Positions 47,937 to 55,114 of a DNA stretch of 64,000 bases are shown piece after piece (the first letter of the stretch is position 1; every line of letters begins with the position of its first letter). The stretch comes from Sphingopyxis sp. (GTDB lineage Bacteria > Pseudomonadota > Alphaproteobacteria > Sphingomonadales > Sphingomonadaceae): NCBI GenBank assembly GCA_017745175.1, contig JAGHZY010000008.1:39968-103967 (forward strand). The letters are read 5' to 3'. A program made the position numbers and the translations under genes. The notes under the pieces were generated by a model, which saw nothing but the letters and a program-made list of their open reading frames with translations, did not search any database and was not told the DNA's origin.

Positions 47937-48571
47937 GCCTCCAGCTCCGCCATGGCTTCGGCGATCGTCACCGGCGCCTTGGCCCGCGCGTACATCGTCT
48001 CCAGATAGCTGCGGAGCGTGGGCGCATCGCCCAGCAGCCCTTCCTCATTCGCCCAGTCGAGCGTGAAGGCGGCATTGAAATCGGCGACCGTCGCCTGCGC
48101 GCCGACGATGAAGTCGCGCCCCTGCATATGCTGCTCCAGCACCGCGACCATCCGCCGGCCGTCGCGCTTCGCGAGCGCGATTTCCGCCTCCGATTTCTCC
48201 TCCTCCGCATAAAGGAAGCTGTGCAGCGCGATCCGCCACAGCGGCGCCTCGATCTCGGTCATCAGGAAGAACAGCCAGTGATGCATCCGCGCACGATCTT
48301 CTGCCGTCGCGGGGATCAGCCCGCCGCCCGGAAAGCGGTCGCCATATTTGTCGGCGAGATAGAGCTGGATCGCCGCCGATTCGCAGATCGCCAGATCGCC
48401 GTCGACCAGCACCGGCAGCTTCGCGGCGGGATTGAGCACGAGAAATTCGGGTGTCCGGTTTTCGCCCGCGCCGATGTCGACCTCTATGATCTCATGCGCA
48501 AGGTCGAGTTCGTTGAGCAGCCACATCGCGCGCAGCGCACGCGTCGGCGGGGTTCCGTAGAGTTTGATCAT
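47933..48571 (-). CDS. Glutathione S-transferase family protein
   Basis: MIKLYGTPPTRALRAMWLLNELDLAHEIIEVDI; LNPAAKLPVLVDGDLAICESAAIQLYLADKYG. Confidence 0.92.
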   Translation of the reverse strand: MIKLYGTPPTRALRAMWLLNELDLAHEIIEVDIGAGENRTPEFLVLNPAAKLPVLVDGDLAICESAAIQLYLADKYGDRFPGGGLIPATAEDRARMHHWLFFLMTEIEAPLWRIALHSFLYAEEEKSEAEIALAKRDGRRMVAVLEQHMQGRDFIVGAQATVADFNAAFTLDWANEEGLLGDAPTLRSYLETMYARAKAPVTIAEAMAELEA

Positions 48572-48606
48572 CGTTTCCATCCTCTCGATCCACCCTGTCG
48601 CGCAGC

Positions 48607-48704
48607 GATGGGGAGGGGGACCGCGCCCGAAGGGCGTGGTGGAGGGGCCGCGGCCTCGGCGCCATTGGCCCCTCCGTCGGCCCTGCGGGCCGCCACCTCC
48701 CCAT
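48607..48704. repeat. Imperfect inverted repeat, arms approx. 40 nt, within the VOC/GST cluster
   Basis: gatggggagggggaccgcgcccgaagggcgtggtggaggggcc ... ggcccctccgtcggccctgcgggccgccacctccccatg. Confidence 0.7.
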
Positions 48705-48734
48705 GCCTCCGGCACAGGGAGGAGCCGGTAATCG

Positions 48735-49454
48735 TCAGGCCTCGACGATCGGTGCGAAGCCGCCATAGATCATGCGCGCGCCGTCGAACGGATTGGTCGC
48801 GGGATCGTGCTTCATCCGCTCGTCGGTCATCATCTTTTCCCAGCCCGCGGTGCGCGCTTCCTTGCTCGGCCATTCGACCCAGCTGTAGACGACGCTCTCG
48901 CCATCCTTCTTGTGCGCGGCGCGGGCATAGTCGGTGACCTTGCCGTCGGGGACATCGTCGGCCCACGCCTCGACGACGCGCGTCGCGCCATAGTCGCGGA
49001 ACACTTCGGACGCTTTCTCCGCCATCGTGCGATAGGCATCCTTGTTGCCGTCGGGGACGGGAACGAGATAGCCGTCGACATAGGCGGTCTTGCCGTCCGC
49101 CCGGTCGTCGACGATCGAGTCGAATCCGCCGATGATCATCCGCTTGCCGTCGAACGGCATTTCACCGCCCATCGCCGCCATGCGCGGATCGCTCATCATC
49201 TTTTCGTTCGCGGCGTCGCGCGTCGCCCGGTCGGGATATTCGAACCAGCTGAACACGACGGTCTCGTCGGGTTTCGCCTGCACGGCGCCCTTGAAATCAT
49301 TGACCTTGCCGTCGGGCACGTCGTCGCCCCAGCATTCGACCATGCGCGCGACGCCGAATTCCTTGAACAGATGCGCCGCGTCGGCGGCATGTTTGCGATA
49401 GGCTTCCTTGTTGGCGGTCGGCACCGCGACCACAAATCCTTCTACATAGGTCAT
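48735..49454 (-). CDS. Tandemly duplicated DUF1428 protein
   Basis: MTYVEGFVVAVPTANKEAYRKHAADAAHLFKEFGVARMVECWGDDVPDGKVNDF... and TAYVDGYLVPVPDGNKDAYRTMAEKASEVFRDYGATRVVEAWADDVPDGKVTDY... Confidence 0.92.
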   Translation of the reverse strand: MTYVEGFVVAVPTANKEAYRKHAADAAHLFKEFGVARMVECWGDDVPDGKVNDFKGAVQAKPDETVVFSWFEYPDRATRDAANEKMMSDPRMAAMGGEMPFDGKRMIIGGFDSIVDDRADGKTAYVDGYLVPVPDGNKDAYRTMAEKASEVFRDYGATRVVEAWADDVPDGKVTDYARAAHKKDGESVVYSWVEWPSKEARTAGWEKMMTDERMKHDPATNPFDGARMIYGGFAPIVEA

Positions 49455-49486
49455 CTTGTCTCTCCTAAGGGGGGTGGGAGGGGGTT

Positions 49487-50161
49487 TCAGGCGGCGGGCG
49501 GTCCCGCTTCTTCGCTGAAGGCGGCCAGCTGCGCGTCCATCGCGCGCTGGAAGGCGGGGCGGGCGAGGCAGCGGTCCAGATAGGCCTGCAACCGCGGCTG
49601 CTCGGCGATCAGTCCCGCCTCGACGGCTTCGCGCAAGACGGTGGCCATCGCGATATCGGCGACGGTGAATTCGCCCGTGAGATACGCCTTGTCGCCGATC
49701 GCGTCGTTCAGGCGGCCGAGCCGGCCCTGGATGAACTCGATCAGGCTCGGCCGGCGCAGCTTCGCCCATTCCTCGTCGGTCGAGAAGATGTCGATATTGC
49801 CGAGTTCGAACAGCATCGGCTCGACGCTGTTATAGGCGGCGAACAGCCACGCGAGCGTGTTGGCGCGTGCCTGCGGGTCGCGGGGCATCAGCCGCGCGTC
49901 CTTTTCGGCAAGATGGAGCAGGATCGCGCCGCTTTCGAACAGGCGGATGCCGCCGTCGTTGAGCACGGGGACCTGCCCCCACGGCTGGAACAGGAAATGG
50001 TCGGCGGGGCGGTTGATCGCGCTGATCAGATGCTCGGCATAATCGAGCCCGATTTCCTCGCACGCCCAGCGCGGGCGCAGGTCGCGGACATAGCCGCGCG
50101 CGAAGTCGGGCACCCAGTTGAAGGCGGTGACTTCAAGCTTGCTGTCGGGATTGACGGGCAT
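49487..50161 (-). CDS. Glutathione S-transferase family protein
   Basis: RDLRPRWACEEIGLDYAEHLI; PWGQVPVLNDGGIRLFESGAILLHLAEKDARL. Confidence 0.92.
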   Translation of the reverse strand: MPVNPDSKLEVTAFNWVPDFARGYVRDLRPRWACEEIGLDYAEHLISAINRPADHFLFQPWGQVPVLNDGGIRLFESGAILLHLAEKDARLMPRDPQARANTLAWLFAAYNSVEPMLFELGNIDIFSTDEEWAKLRRPSLIEFIQGRLGRLNDAIGDKAYLTGEFTVADIAMATVLREAVEAGLIAEQPRLQAYLDRCLARPAFQRAMDAQLAAFSEEAGPPAA

Positions 50162-50187
50162 AGGGAACTCCTCTCATCATTTTTGTT

Positions 50188-50270
50188 TCGTCATCCCGGC
50201 GAAGGCCGGGATCTCATCGTTGCAATTCGTCGGCCCCGTCGAGATTCCGGCCTCCGCCGGAATGACGATG
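50188..50270. repeat. Intergenic hairpin pair (gtcatcccggcgaaggccgggat type)
   Basis: cgtcatcccggcgaaggccgggatctcatcgttgcaattcgtcggccccgtcgagattccggcctccgccggaatgacg. Confidence 0.75.
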
Positions 50271-50284
50271 GAGCAAAAGCCGCG

Positions 50285-51250
50285 CTAGAAGGACGGCGGC
50301 GGCGGCGCCTTGTCGTCCAAAAAGGGCGTGACCATTGCGGCGATCGCCGGAACTTCGCCCATGATCCCGATGTGCGAGGTTGCGGGCAGGATCGCGAGCC
50401 GCGCTTTCGGCGCCGAGGTCAGGAAACCCTGCGTCGCCGCGGCCACATCGCCGCCGCCGCGCAGCTTGAACAGCTGGATCGCATGATCGAGCGTCACGCC
50501 GTCGGCGTCGCCGATGATCACCATCGTCCGGCCGGGGATCGCGCGGACCGCGGCGTCGGACCAGCCGAAAGGCGTCGCGTCGAGCGACTTGATATTCGCG
50601 ACCAGCACCGGGAATTTCTGCGGAGCGGGCGACAGCCTTTTATATTCGGTGTCGATCGGGCTGCCTGCGAAGATTTCGGGGGTCAGCTTCGAGATTCCCG
50701 CCAGCACTTCGGGATACCAGCCGTCGAGCCGCGAGGTCGCCGACAATATCACCTGCTTGCCGATCCTGTCGGGATGCTTGACGGCGAGCGCGACCGCGGT
50801 CGAGCCGCCCATCGAATAGCCGAGTACGTCGGCCTGCCGGACGCCGAGGCTGTCGAGTACCGCGGCGGTATCGTCGGCCATCCGGTCGTAGCTCAGCGGC
50901 CCGTCGACTCCGCCCGACCGGCCATGGCCGCGCGCATCGACCGCGATCACCGGCCGGGTCGCGGCAAGCGGATCGATCAGCGGCTTCATCGCGTCGGCGG
51001 ACATGAAGGCGCCGTGCAGGACAACCAGCGGGGTGCGACCCGATTTGAGGTCGCCATAGACCTGATAATGGATCGCCGCGCCCGCGACATCGACCTCGCC
51101 GTTCCGGGGCGTGCTGCCGGACTGGCCGGCGGCAGGCTTCGGCGCCGGGGCTTCGGCCGCTGCGGGTTGCGGCAGCGCGGCGAGCGTTGCCGCTACCGCG
51201 ATCGTCGCGAAGGCGGAGGCAAGTGCCGGGAGGGGAGAGCGTCGTGTCAT
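50285..51250 (-). CDS. Exported alpha/beta hydrolase
   Basis: Signal peptide; PLVVLHGAFMSADAMKPLID, VDARGHGRSGG, ADVLGYSMGGSTAVALA. Confidence 0.92.
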   Translation of the reverse strand: MTRRSPLPALASAFATIAVAATLAALPQPAAAEAPAPKPAAGQSGSTPRNGEVDVAGAAIHYQVYGDLKSGRTPLVVLHGAFMSADAMKPLIDPLAATRPVIAVDARGHGRSGGVDGPLSYDRMADDTAAVLDSLGVRQADVLGYSMGGSTAVALAVKHPDRIGKQVILSATSRLDGWYPEVLAGISKLTPEIFAGSPIDTEYKRLSPAPQKFPVLVANIKSLDATPFGWSDAAVRAIPGRTMVIIGDADGVTLDHAIQLFKLRGGGDVAAATQGFLTSAPKARLAILPATSHIGIMGEVPAIAAMVTPFLDDKAPPPPSF

Positions 51251-51280
51251 CGAACTATCCTCTTGTTCTCAAGACGGAGT

Positions 51281-51499
51281 CTAGCTCCGTTTGCCTTTGA
51301 TGAAGGCGACGATCGACATCGCGTGACCATGGCCGAGGCCGAAGTCGTTCTTCAGCCAGTCGATGATCGCGCCGGGCTTGACGCCGGGAGCGAGCCCGCT
51401 CGCGTCGGCGAGACCCTTGTCGATCGCGATGGCTTTCAGCGCCTCGGCCGATTTGCCGGTCTTGCTTTCGACATTGTCGAGATAGGCCTGAAAGCTCAT
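51281..51499 (-). CDS. DUF4287-type protein
   Basis: MSFQAYLDNVESKTGKSAEALKAIAIDKGL...VKPGAIIDWLKNDFGLGHGHAMSIVAFIKG. Confidence 0.88.
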   Translation of the reverse strand: MSFQAYLDNVESKTGKSAEALKAIAIDKGLADASGLAPGVKPGAIIDWLKNDFGLGHGHAMSIVAFIKGKRS

Positions 51500-51912
51500 G
51501 CGGCCGTTCCCTTCGACAGCGGGATCAGGGCACGGACGCGGGGATCGCGCAGCCACAGGCCGCCCCACAGCATCAGGCCGAGGTAGACGCCGAACAATAT
51601 GTGGCTGAACAGCGGGCTGTTGATGCGGACATGGGTGGCGACCGCGCCGCCGAGATAGCCGGTGATCAGGATCGCGCCGAGGATCGCCGTGCGCGGCCAG
51701 ATGTAAAGCAGCGTCGGGATCAGCAGCAGCGTACCGAGCAGGTGCATCGTGCCGACCTCGAGCGGCCAGCCGAGGTCCGGCGGGCTGTATCTGATCGCGG
51801 TTTCGGGCGACACCAGCTTCAATCCGGCGTCGAAGAGCAGGAAGAGGATCACAAGGCCGCTCAGTACGCGGCCGGCGATCAGCTGCCCCTTTCCGGGGGT
51901 CGTATCGGTCAT
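51496..51912 (-). CDS. DoxX-like membrane protein
   Basis: VLSGLVILFLLFDAGLKLVSPETAIRYSPPDLGWPLEVGTMHLLGTLLLIPTLLYIWPRTAILGAILITGYLGGAVATHVRI. Confidence 0.85.
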   Translation of the reverse strand: MTDTTPGKGQLIAGRVLSGLVILFLLFDAGLKLVSPETAIRYSPPDLGWPLEVGTMHLLGTLLLIPTLLYIWPRTAILGAILITGYLGGAVATHVRINSPLFSHILFGVYLGLMLWGGLWLRDPRVRALIPLSKGTAA

Positions 51913-51937
51913 CCTCTTCCTCCTTCCCATGCTTCGT

Positions 51938-52372
51938 TTATGCGGTCGCTTCGGCGGGCTCGCCGGCGGGGATCGCGGTCGGGTCCATCCACATCACTTC
52001 CCAGATATGGCCGTCGGGATCCTCGAAGCTGCGGCCGTACATGAAGCCGAAATCCTGCGTCGGGGTCGGGTCGGCCTTGCCGCCTGCCTTGACCGCCTTG
52101 TCGACCTGGCCGTCGACGTCCGCGCGGCTGTCGGCCGAGAGGCAGAGCAGCACCTGTGCCGTCGTGTGCGCATCGGGGATCGCCTTCGACGTGAAGGTCG
52201 CCCATTTTTCATGTGTCAGCAGCATGACGTGGATCGACCCTTCGGTGACGACCATGCACGCCGCGGTATCGTCGGTGAAGGCGGGGTTGTTCACCGCGCC
52301 GACCGCTTCGTAAAAGGCTTTCGACTTCGGAAGGTCGGTGACCGGCAGGTTCACGAAAATCATCTGGGGCAT
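51938..52372 (-). CDS. VOC family protein
   Basis: MPQMIFVNLPVTDLPKSKAFYEAVGAVNNPAFTDDTAACMVVTEGSIHVMLLTHEKW...DPDGHIWEVMWMDP. Confidence 0.93.
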   Translation of the reverse strand: MPQMIFVNLPVTDLPKSKAFYEAVGAVNNPAFTDDTAACMVVTEGSIHVMLLTHEKWATFTSKAIPDAHTTAQVLLCLSADSRADVDGQVDKAVKAGGKADPTPTQDFGFMYGRSFEDPDGHIWEVMWMDPTAIPAGEPAEATA

Positions 52373-52439
52373 TTCATCTCTCCTTGGGGGCGGTGGTTGG
52401 TGGGACTGAAAGGTCGGCGTGGGCGGCGCGCGGCCGCGA

Positions 52440-53141
52440 TCATCTGTCGCATCGCGCCGCGCCTTCGCTGTCGAACAGCATCCGTACATAACGCTTCAGA
52501 TGGGTGACGGTGCCGCGCGCAATCGCCGGATCGTTGGTCGTTTTGGCCAGAACGAACGCGCCCTGCAGCACCGACTGGACATGCTGGGCAAGGCCCAGCG
52601 CGGTGACGTCGTCGGGGACGCCGTACACGTCCATCGCCGCCTGGATGTCGGGGGCGAGCGCCTGGCAATAGGCGTTGATGCTCGCCTCGCACGCGGCGCG
52701 GATGCGGTCGTTCGTCGCATAGGCTTCCTGCACCATCGTGCCGACGAAGCAGGTATAGTCCTCGGTGGGCCCGTCGAGCATCGACAGGCGGAAATCGATA
52801 TGGCCGAGCAATCGGTCGAGCGGGTCCTCGAGCTTCACATGCGGCGCGAGTTCGAACATCGGCCGCGCGCGCTCGGTCCAGCCTTCGGCCGCCGCGACCG
52901 CCAGCTCTTCCTTCGACGCGAAGTGATGGAAGAAGGCGCCCTTGGTCACCCCCGCCGCGGCGCAGATCTGGTCGACCGTCGTCGCCGCATAGCCTTGCTT
53001 GCGCACCGTCGCGTGCGCCGCGGCGATCAGCGCCGCGCGGGCGCTGCCGCGCGGCGCGCGCGCTCCCGCGGTGCTGCCGCCCGCCGGGGGGACATCGCGG
53101 GCGGCGGCTGCGGGGACGGAAGGGGGCTGATTCGTCGTCAT
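52440..53141 (-). CDS. TetR family transcriptional regulator
   Basis: ARAALIAAAHATVRKQGYAATTVDQICAAAGVTKGAFFHHFASKEELAVAAAEGW; start MTTNQP at 53141 or MSIRM at 53153. Confidence 0.92.
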   Translation of the reverse strand: MTTNQPPSVPAAAARDVPPAGGSTAGARAPRGSARAALIAAAHATVRKQGYAATTVDQICAAAGVTKGAFFHHFASKEELAVAAAEGWTERARPMFELAPHVKLEDPLDRLLGHIDFRLSMLDGPTEDYTCFVGTMVQEAYATNDRIRAACEASINAYCQALAPDIQAAMDVYGVPDDVTALGLAQHVQSVLQGAFVLAKTTNDPAIARGTVTHLKRYVRMLFDSEGAARCDR

Positions 53142-53149
53142 GCGAATCG

Positions 53150-53171
53150 ACATACCGACTAGTTGGTATGT
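53150..53171. promoter_or_regulatory. Palindromic operator candidate at the TetR gene start
   Basis: ACATACCGACTAGTTGGTATGT: 22-bp palindrome, one mismatched pair. Confidence 0.75.
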
Positions 53172-53303
53172 TGTCAAACCGGTAACCGGGCTCACGCGCC
53201 GCGGCACCTTCGACACCTTCCGGAAAAGACTCGACCTTCCCGCCACTTCGCCTAAAAAGGGATCGGAACAAAGGGAGCACATCGTTGCCGTTCCGGGGGA
53301 AAT

Positions 53304-54812
53304 ATGGTCGCAGTCGTTTCAACCACGGCCTATCTCGGCATCGAGGCGCGCGGGGTCGAGGTGCAGTGCCAGGTCACGCCGGGCGTGCCGCGCTTCGTCG
53401 TCGTCGGCCTGCCCGACAAGGCGGTGGGCGAAAGCCGCGAGCGCGTCCGCGCCGCGATCGCCGCGATCGGCCTGTCGCTCCCGCCCACGGTCATCACCGT
53501 CAACCTGTCGCCCGCCGACCTGCCCAAGGAGGGCTCGCATTACGATCTGCCGATCGCGCTGGCGCTGCTTGGCGCGATGGGGGTGATCGATGCCGAAACG
53601 CTCGCCTCCTATGTCGTCGTCGGCGAACTCGGCCTCGATGGTCGCGTGACGGCTTCACCCGGGGTGCTGCTCGCGGCGATCCATGCGGGCAGCATCGAAC
53701 GCGGGCTGATCTGCCCCGCGGCGCAAGGGCCCGAAGCGGCATGGGCGGGTAATGTCGAAGTGCTCGGCGCGCCCGACCTCCTGTCGCTGCTCAACCACTT
53801 CAGGGGCAATGCGCTGCTGGCGCCGCCAGTGCCGGGCGAAGTCGAGATACCCGCGCGCGCCGCGGACCTGTCGCAGGTGAAGGGGCAGGAAGTCGCGAAG
53901 CGCGCGCTCGAAATCGCGGCGGCGGGCGCACATAATCTGATGATGTCGGGCCCGCCCGGCGCGGGCAAGTCGCTGATGGCGGCGTGCATGCCGGGCATCC
54001 TCCCCGACCTTACGCCGGCCGAGGCGCTCGAAGTGTCGATGATCGCGTCGGTCGCCGGAACGCTCGAGGGCGGGCGTTTGGTTCGCGCAAGGCCGTTCCG
54101 CGCGCCGCATCATTCGGCCTCGATGCCCGCGCTCGTCGGCGGCGGGTTGCGTGTGCGGCCGGGCGAAGTCAGCCTCGCGCATCTCGGCGTGCTCTTTCTC
54201 GACGAGCTCCCCGAATTCCAGCGCGGCGTGCTCGATTCGCTCCGCCAGCCGCTCGAAACGGGCGAGGTCAGCGTCGCGCGCGCCAATGCGCATGTGACCT
54301 TTCCTGCGCGCGTCCAGCTCGTCGCTGCGATGAACCCGTGCCGCTGCGGCCACCTCGGCGACCCCGCGCTGGCGTGCAGCCGTGCGCCGCGCTGCGCCGC
54401 CGATTATCAGGCGAAGCTCTCTGGGCCGCTGCTCGATCGCATCGACCTGCACGTCGAGGTCCAGGCGGTGAGTGCCGCCGATCTCGTCCTGCCGCCGCCC
54501 GCCGAAGGCAGCGCCGAGGTCGCGGCGCGCGTCGCCGCGGCGCGTGGCGCGCAGACCGTGCGCTATGCCGGGCACAAGGCACGCACCAATGCCGAGATCG
54601 ATGGCGACTTGCTCGAAGCCGTGGCGACGCCCGACGAGGCAGGCCGTAAATTGCTCGCGCAGGCGGCCGAGGCGATGCGGCTCTCGGCACGTGGATATAC
54701 GCGGATATTGCGCGTCGCGCGGACGATTGCCGATCTTGCCGGCACCGAAATTGTCGGGCGCATCCATATCGCCGAGGCTCTCGGCTACCGCCGGCAGGCG
54801 CCGAGGAACTGA
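53304..54812 (+). CDS. comM: YifB/ComM family Mg-chelatase-like AAA+ ATPase
   Basis: VVGLPDKAVGESRERVRAAIAAIGLSLPPTVITVNLSPADLPKEGSHYDLPIAL; MMSGPPGAGKSLMAACMPGILPDL; MNPCRCGHLGDP. Confidence 0.95.
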   Translation: MVAVVSTTAYLGIEARGVEVQCQVTPGVPRFVVVGLPDKAVGESRERVRAAIAAIGLSLPPTVITVNLSPADLPKEGSHYDLPIALALLGAMGVIDAETLASYVVVGELGLDGRVTASPGVLLAAIHAGSIERGLICPAAQGPEAAWAGNVEVLGAPDLLSLLNHFRGNALLAPPVPGEVEIPARAADLSQVKGQEVAKRALEIAAAGAHNLMMSGPPGAGKSLMAACMPGILPDLTPAEALEVSMIASVAGTLEGGRLVRARPFRAPHHSASMPALVGGGLRVRPGEVSLAHLGVLFLDELPEFQRGVLDSLRQPLETGEVSVARANAHVTFPARVQLVAAMNPCRCGHLGDPALACSRAPRCAADYQAKLSGPLLDRIDLHVEVQAVSAADLVLPPPAEGSAEVAARVAAARGAQTVRYAGHKARTNAEIDGDLLEAVATPDEAGRKLLAQAAEAMRLSARGYTRILRVARTIADLAGTEIVGRIHIAEALGYRRQAPRN

Positions 54813-55114
54813 TGGAGGAGATCGTTTTCGAAGCGCGGATTATCGAATGGCGCGGGCCGGCGCCCTTTTTCTTCGCGCCGGTTCCCGACGAGCATGTCGG
54901 TGCGATCCGCTACGCCGCAATGACCGCAAGCTACGGCTGGGGCGTCGTACCCGTCGTGGCGACCGTCGGCGGCACCGAATTCGCCACGTCGCTTTTCCCA
55001 CGTGACGGGGGCTATCTGCTCCCGATCAAGGTCGCCGTCCAGAAATCCGAAGGGGTCGGCTTCGGCGACCGGATAAGGGCGCGCCTGCGTGTCGGCCGTC
55101 CCGGTCCGCGCTGA
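54812..55114 (+). CDS. DUF1905-type protein
   Basis: FEARIIEWRGPAPFFFAPVPDEHVGAIR...TEFATSLFPRDGGYLLPIKVAVQKSEGVGFGDRI. Confidence 0.88.
   Translation: MEEIVFEARIIEWRGPAPFFFAPVPDEHVGAIRYAAMTASYGWGVVPVVATVGGTEFATSLFPRDGGYLLPIKVAVQKSEGVGFGDRIRARLRVGRPGPR

Follow-up and report, generated by a model that had tools for sequence, protein, structure and literature searches.

AcuR of Rhodobacter sphaeroides is a TetR-family autorepressor encoded by the promoter-proximal gene of the acuR-acuI-dddL operon; its leaderless start has been mapped, and mutations in its operator and promoter have been tested (PMC3017554). The AcuR operator, TAATAGAC-n6-GTCTATTA, is a 22-bp inverted repeat that overlaps the promoter, the transcript starts at the ATG of the regulator without a Shine-Dalgarno sequence, and the regulator is reported to be translated less than the downstream genes (PMC3017554). 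The locus described here, which lies in a 64,000-nucleotide stretch of Sphingopyxis sp. DNA (the window), is alike in that a TetR-family regulator, predicted to be an autorepressor, is encoded next to the promoter, a 22-bp inverted repeat overlaps that promoter, and no Shine-Dalgarno sequence precedes the regulator gene, whose transcript probably starts at its ATG; lower translation of the regulator relative to the downstream genes would likewise be expected. However, the window operator reads ACATACCR-n6-YGGTATGT, and the operon, unlike that of AcuR, is without acuI or dddL, with a Pfam scan finding no acuI-like gene among the six downstream genes. The window TetR scores 47.5 bits against the NCBIfam AcuR equivalog NF051457, for which the cut-off is 247. 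We therefore rejected AcuR identity on the basis of family score, operator and missing acuI: the window system works like AcuR of Rhodobacter but is not AcuR.

Two further groups of regulators bear comparison. NemR of E. coli is a sensor of reactive electrophiles and chlorine, its gene is accompanied by glyoxalase-type detoxification genes, and its operator probably differs from that of the window. The fold of the window TetR matches that of reduced NemR (4yze) with a TM of 0.77-0.80 by target length, but the two proteins are just 19-20% identical, and NemR is absent among the 17 NCBIfam matches of the window TetR. Likeness to the LmrA/YxaF (QdoR) group lies in the TetR_C_13 domain and in the presence of YxaF (1sgm) among the fold matches, but identity to YxaF is only ~22% and the gene context is different.

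Results

The tetR gene (52440..53141, minus strand, ATG at 53141) encodes a 233-aa protein with Pfam TetR_N and TetR_C_13 domains. It scores 57.2 bits against the TetR helix-turn-helix family (PF00440, cut-off 24) and 35.4 against TetR_C_13 (PF16925, gathering score 27), with the C-terminal domain lying above the cut-off for TetR_C_13_2 as well. The AlphaFold model is all-helical (pLDDT 83) and its best fold matches are TetR proteins, the neighbours including PA2196, YxaF, NemR and the R. sphaeroides protein 3bru. Two cysteines, Cys60 and Cys131, do not vary among 30 homologues and would allow electrophile sensing, a weak suggestion because the cysteine near 131 may be a mere feature of the TetR_C_13 group.

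Downstream on the same (minus) strand follow genes for a VOC/glyoxalase-superfamily protein (51938..52372, Pfam Glyoxalase), a DoxX-like membrane protein (51496..51912, DoxX_2), a DUF4287 protein (51281..51499, DUF4287; 4-bp overlap with doxX), an alpha/beta hydrolase with a signal-peptide-like N-terminus (50285..51250, Abhydrolase_1), a glutathione S-transferase (49487..50161, GST_N) and, presumably as the last gene of the operon, a tandem DUF1428 protein (48735..49454, DUF1428 in two stretches). This last protein consists of two fused DUF1428 copies, and DUF1428 genes recur near the regulator in other genera. Clear Shine-Dalgarno sequences precede four of the six downstream genes (AAGGAGAG for the VOC gene, and AAGGAGG, GAGGAG and AGGAGAG); that of the hydrolase is weaker (AGAGGA), the DUF4287 gene overlaps doxX, and tetR is without any. 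Because a 123-bp gap precedes the GST gene, we can only infer that the last two genes (GST and DUF1428) are co-transcribed with the others. A search of 48500-55000 against Rfam gave no RNA element. The downstream gene set is variable within the genus, with VOC, GST and DUF1428 recurring, and at distant loci the commonest downstream genes encode PhnB/3-dmu-9_3-mt VOC proteins, AHSA1 (SRPBCC) proteins, glyoxalase-fold proteins and DUF1428. Genes of these kinds suggest that small reactive or aromatic compounds are being transformed, and our guess from the same content is that the inducer may be an electrophile or reactive carbonyl.

Between tetR and the divergent comM gene (ATG at 53304) there is an intergenic gap of 162 bp, within which a 22-bp palindrome, ACATACCGACTAGTTGGTATGT, occupies positions 53150-53171. 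Ten of its 11 pairs are complementary, the lone unpaired couple being G(8)/T(15); it lies 8 bp from the ATG at 53141 and contains an alternative ATG (53153-53151, minus strand). The original prediction had described this palindrome, its distance from the start, the overlapped ATG and the gap to comM, and a check of the sequence confirms all four. Palindromic operators at the regulator's own promoter are common, if not universal, in the TetR family, and sequence and conservation indicate that the window system shares this feature.

To place the palindrome in a comparative setting, 80 homologous loci were fetched with the TetR protein as query, ranging from Sphingopyxis to Paracoccus, Hyphomonas, Brucella/Ochrobactrum, Azospirillum and others. 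The motif ACATACCRACYRGTYGGTATGT is found directly upstream of 79 of the 80 homologous TetR genes, mostly alphaproteobacterial; at the 80th locus (L025) the contig gives merely 18 bases upstream of the gene. With the window counted, 80 sites can be aligned without gaps, and A5, C6, C7, C10, G16, G17, T18 and A19 are invariant in all of them around a YR centre. A scan of the genus from DNA alone detected the motif (at most one mismatch) in 53 of 60 genomes, 52 of which have exactly one copy, compared to a match in 1 of 60 genomes for the reversed pattern that served as control. The seven genus genomes without the motif are all without the TetR gene too, the gene is present in each of the four motif-bearing genomes tested, and the 20 motif loci retrieved through the scan adjoin the TetR gene without exception. 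A class-wide scan for exact matches added 14 genomes besides the source genome, with 12 of the 14 motif copies adjoining a TetR homologue. The copy at L124 sits between two unrelated genes and is probably a chance match. At L131 (1501-1518) an exact motif precedes genes for an alpha/beta hydrolase, 40% identical to that of the window, and an SRPBCC-type protein; the 3 kb there contain no TetR homologue, an HxlR-type gene ends ~100 bp before the motif, and the motif is possibly a site acting in trans. Across 116 sequences the recognition helix hardly varies from GVTKGAFFHHF, and two regulators from the class-wide scan with just 28-29% identity to the window TetR (L129 and L130) have the same operator together with nearly the same helix (GVTKGAFFYHF, with GVTKGAFF kept in both). 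In the source genome, a genome-wide scan of the kind that the original prediction had called for gives a single match to ATACCRACYRGTYGGTAT with fewer than three mismatches; allowing up to three, there are 3 places vs. 7 for the reversed control pattern. Thus, no second site implying a wider regulon was found in this assembly, which is ~92% complete; one site with a single mismatch (C33) has a centre different from that of the palindrome. Collectively, the comparative evidence makes it near-certain that the palindrome is an operator.

The operator is embedded in a candidate promoter for tetR. On the minus strand the order is a -35 element TTGACA (53177-53172), conserved in 29 genus members, a 17-nt spacer, a -10 element TATGTC (53154-53149, read by consensus), GATTCGC and the ATG at 53141, such that the palindrome fills the spacer and nearly the whole -10, most of which lies in one palindrome arm. 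When 29 genus members are aligned, no conserved block in the gap is longer than the one made up of TTGACA, palindrome and ATG, and 76 of 80 sequences have a TTGA or TTGC that starts 4-7 nt ahead of the site. The tetR promoter escaped a consensus promoter scan because its -10 is a poor match to TATAAT. Given the 7 nt between the -10 and the ATG, transcription is predicted to start at or beside the ATG at 53141, and the tetR mRNA is probably leaderless. The distance from site to start in the homologues is bimodal: 63 have 5-8 nt, with a Shine-Dalgarno-like motif in just one, an absence that is not fully independent evidence as the conserved site itself partly precludes such a motif, and 14 have 12-27 nt, with a Shine-Dalgarno-like motif in 12. 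At eight loci (L064, L065, L066, L069, L082, L085, L087 and L089) the same operator precedes a leader of 19-22 nt that carries a Shine-Dalgarno-like motif. Based on this spacing and Shine-Dalgarno distribution, some lineages appear to be leaderless and others to carry a ribosome site within a leader, with the operator unchanged.

Discussion

Several other explanations for the palindrome deserve consideration. Symmetry by itself is weak evidence for a site in a GC-rich 64-kb window, where 22-mers as symmetric as this one (10 or more of 11 pairs complementary) number 7 vs. 3.7 expected from a first-order Markov simulation; nonetheless, the expectation within the 162-bp gap is ~0.003, and conservation of the motif over the class, at one site per genome, refutes a chance event, to which we give almost no credence. 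Equally, TetR binding to the palindrome is a prediction from sequence, and the site could belong to another regulator, with no binding by the adjacent TetR; this is very unlikely, given that motif and TetR gene are absent together and that the motif is conserved across the class in step with the recognition helix. The palindrome might also partly encode the N-terminus of TetR if translation started at the ATG at 53153, which is open and in frame here, as is its equivalent in 30 of the genus sequences examined. Yet in 11 genus members that frame meets a stop before the equivalent of the 53141 ATG (M*IR and similar), in others the spacing from site to ATG changes by one base to 7 nt, breaking the frame, and the codon would fall in the -10, making the upstream start extremely improbable. 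In one of these 11 (L115) the 53153-equivalent ATG is itself missing. Because of the upstream stops, the evidence supports the ATG at 53141 as the conserved tetR start, as originally proposed.

A role for the palindrome as a shared operator of the tetR operon and comM has in its favour that the site lies in the gap between the two genes and that comM adjoins in nearly all genus loci. The motif is kept, however, before the regulator in genera without an adjacent comM, the spacing of the site is fixed relative to tetR and not to comM, and the candidate comM promoter begins 58 bp beyond the site. That promoter is probably CTCGAC-17-TAAAAA (53230-53258, plus strand), which is partly conserved in the genus. 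We consider shared control unlikely; the effect on comM raised in the original prediction thus finds no support, since the site overlaps the candidate tetR promoter and not the candidate comM promoter. Control of comM was also rejected as the cause of site conservation, as the motif persists where comM is not beside the regulator.

The palindrome is therefore very likely the operator of the adjacent TetR, acting as autorepressor of a predicted detoxification-type operon, tetR-VOC-DoxX-DUF4287-hydrolase-GST-DUF1428. Some TetR proteins activate, and we assume a repressor here. One or two repressor dimers bound to the palindrome would cover the spacer and the -10 and exclude RNA polymerase, so that the regulator's own gene and the six genes behind it would be held down until a small molecule releases the repressor. 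Transcription would then begin at the first base of the ATG at 53141 or beside it, yielding a leaderless tetR message that is probably weakly translated, with most downstream genes having strong Shine-Dalgarno sequences. The operator and autoregulation put forward originally are supported by the conserved site before 79 of 80 homologues and by its overlap with the putative promoter; that reading stands, but it had missed the TTGACA/TATGTC promoter, the leaderless architecture, the downstream operon and the single site per genome.

In the open-access literature searched, which leaves out most subscription papers, we found no description of the window operator or regulator; the motif halves gave unrelated primer-like matches only, and looking for TetR regulators alongside DUF1428 or AHSA1/PhnB operons turned up no account of the window system. 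While the switch principle is well known, this particular regulator-operator form was not found described. We lean slightly towards the view that GVTKGAFFHHF and ACATACCRACYRGTYGGTATGT mark an undescribed alphaproteobacterial regulator-operator pair that would control variable sets of VOC/PhnB-like, SRPBCC (AHSA1), DUF1428, GST and hydrolase genes and respond to a reactive metabolite, its promoter having switched between leaderless and Shine-Dalgarno-led forms during evolution around a fixed operator. The locus provides a clean regulator-operator pair for a widespread uncharacterised cluster (DUF1428, DUF4287, VOC, GST) in Sphingopyxis and other Alphaproteobacteria, and with just one copy of the operator in each genome, the inducer could be sought with a single reporter, which would in turn reveal the role of the DUF proteins. 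Moreover, the promoters, leaderless in some lineages and led in others around an unchanged operator, form a natural series that could serve to test how leaderless translation sets the level of a repressor.
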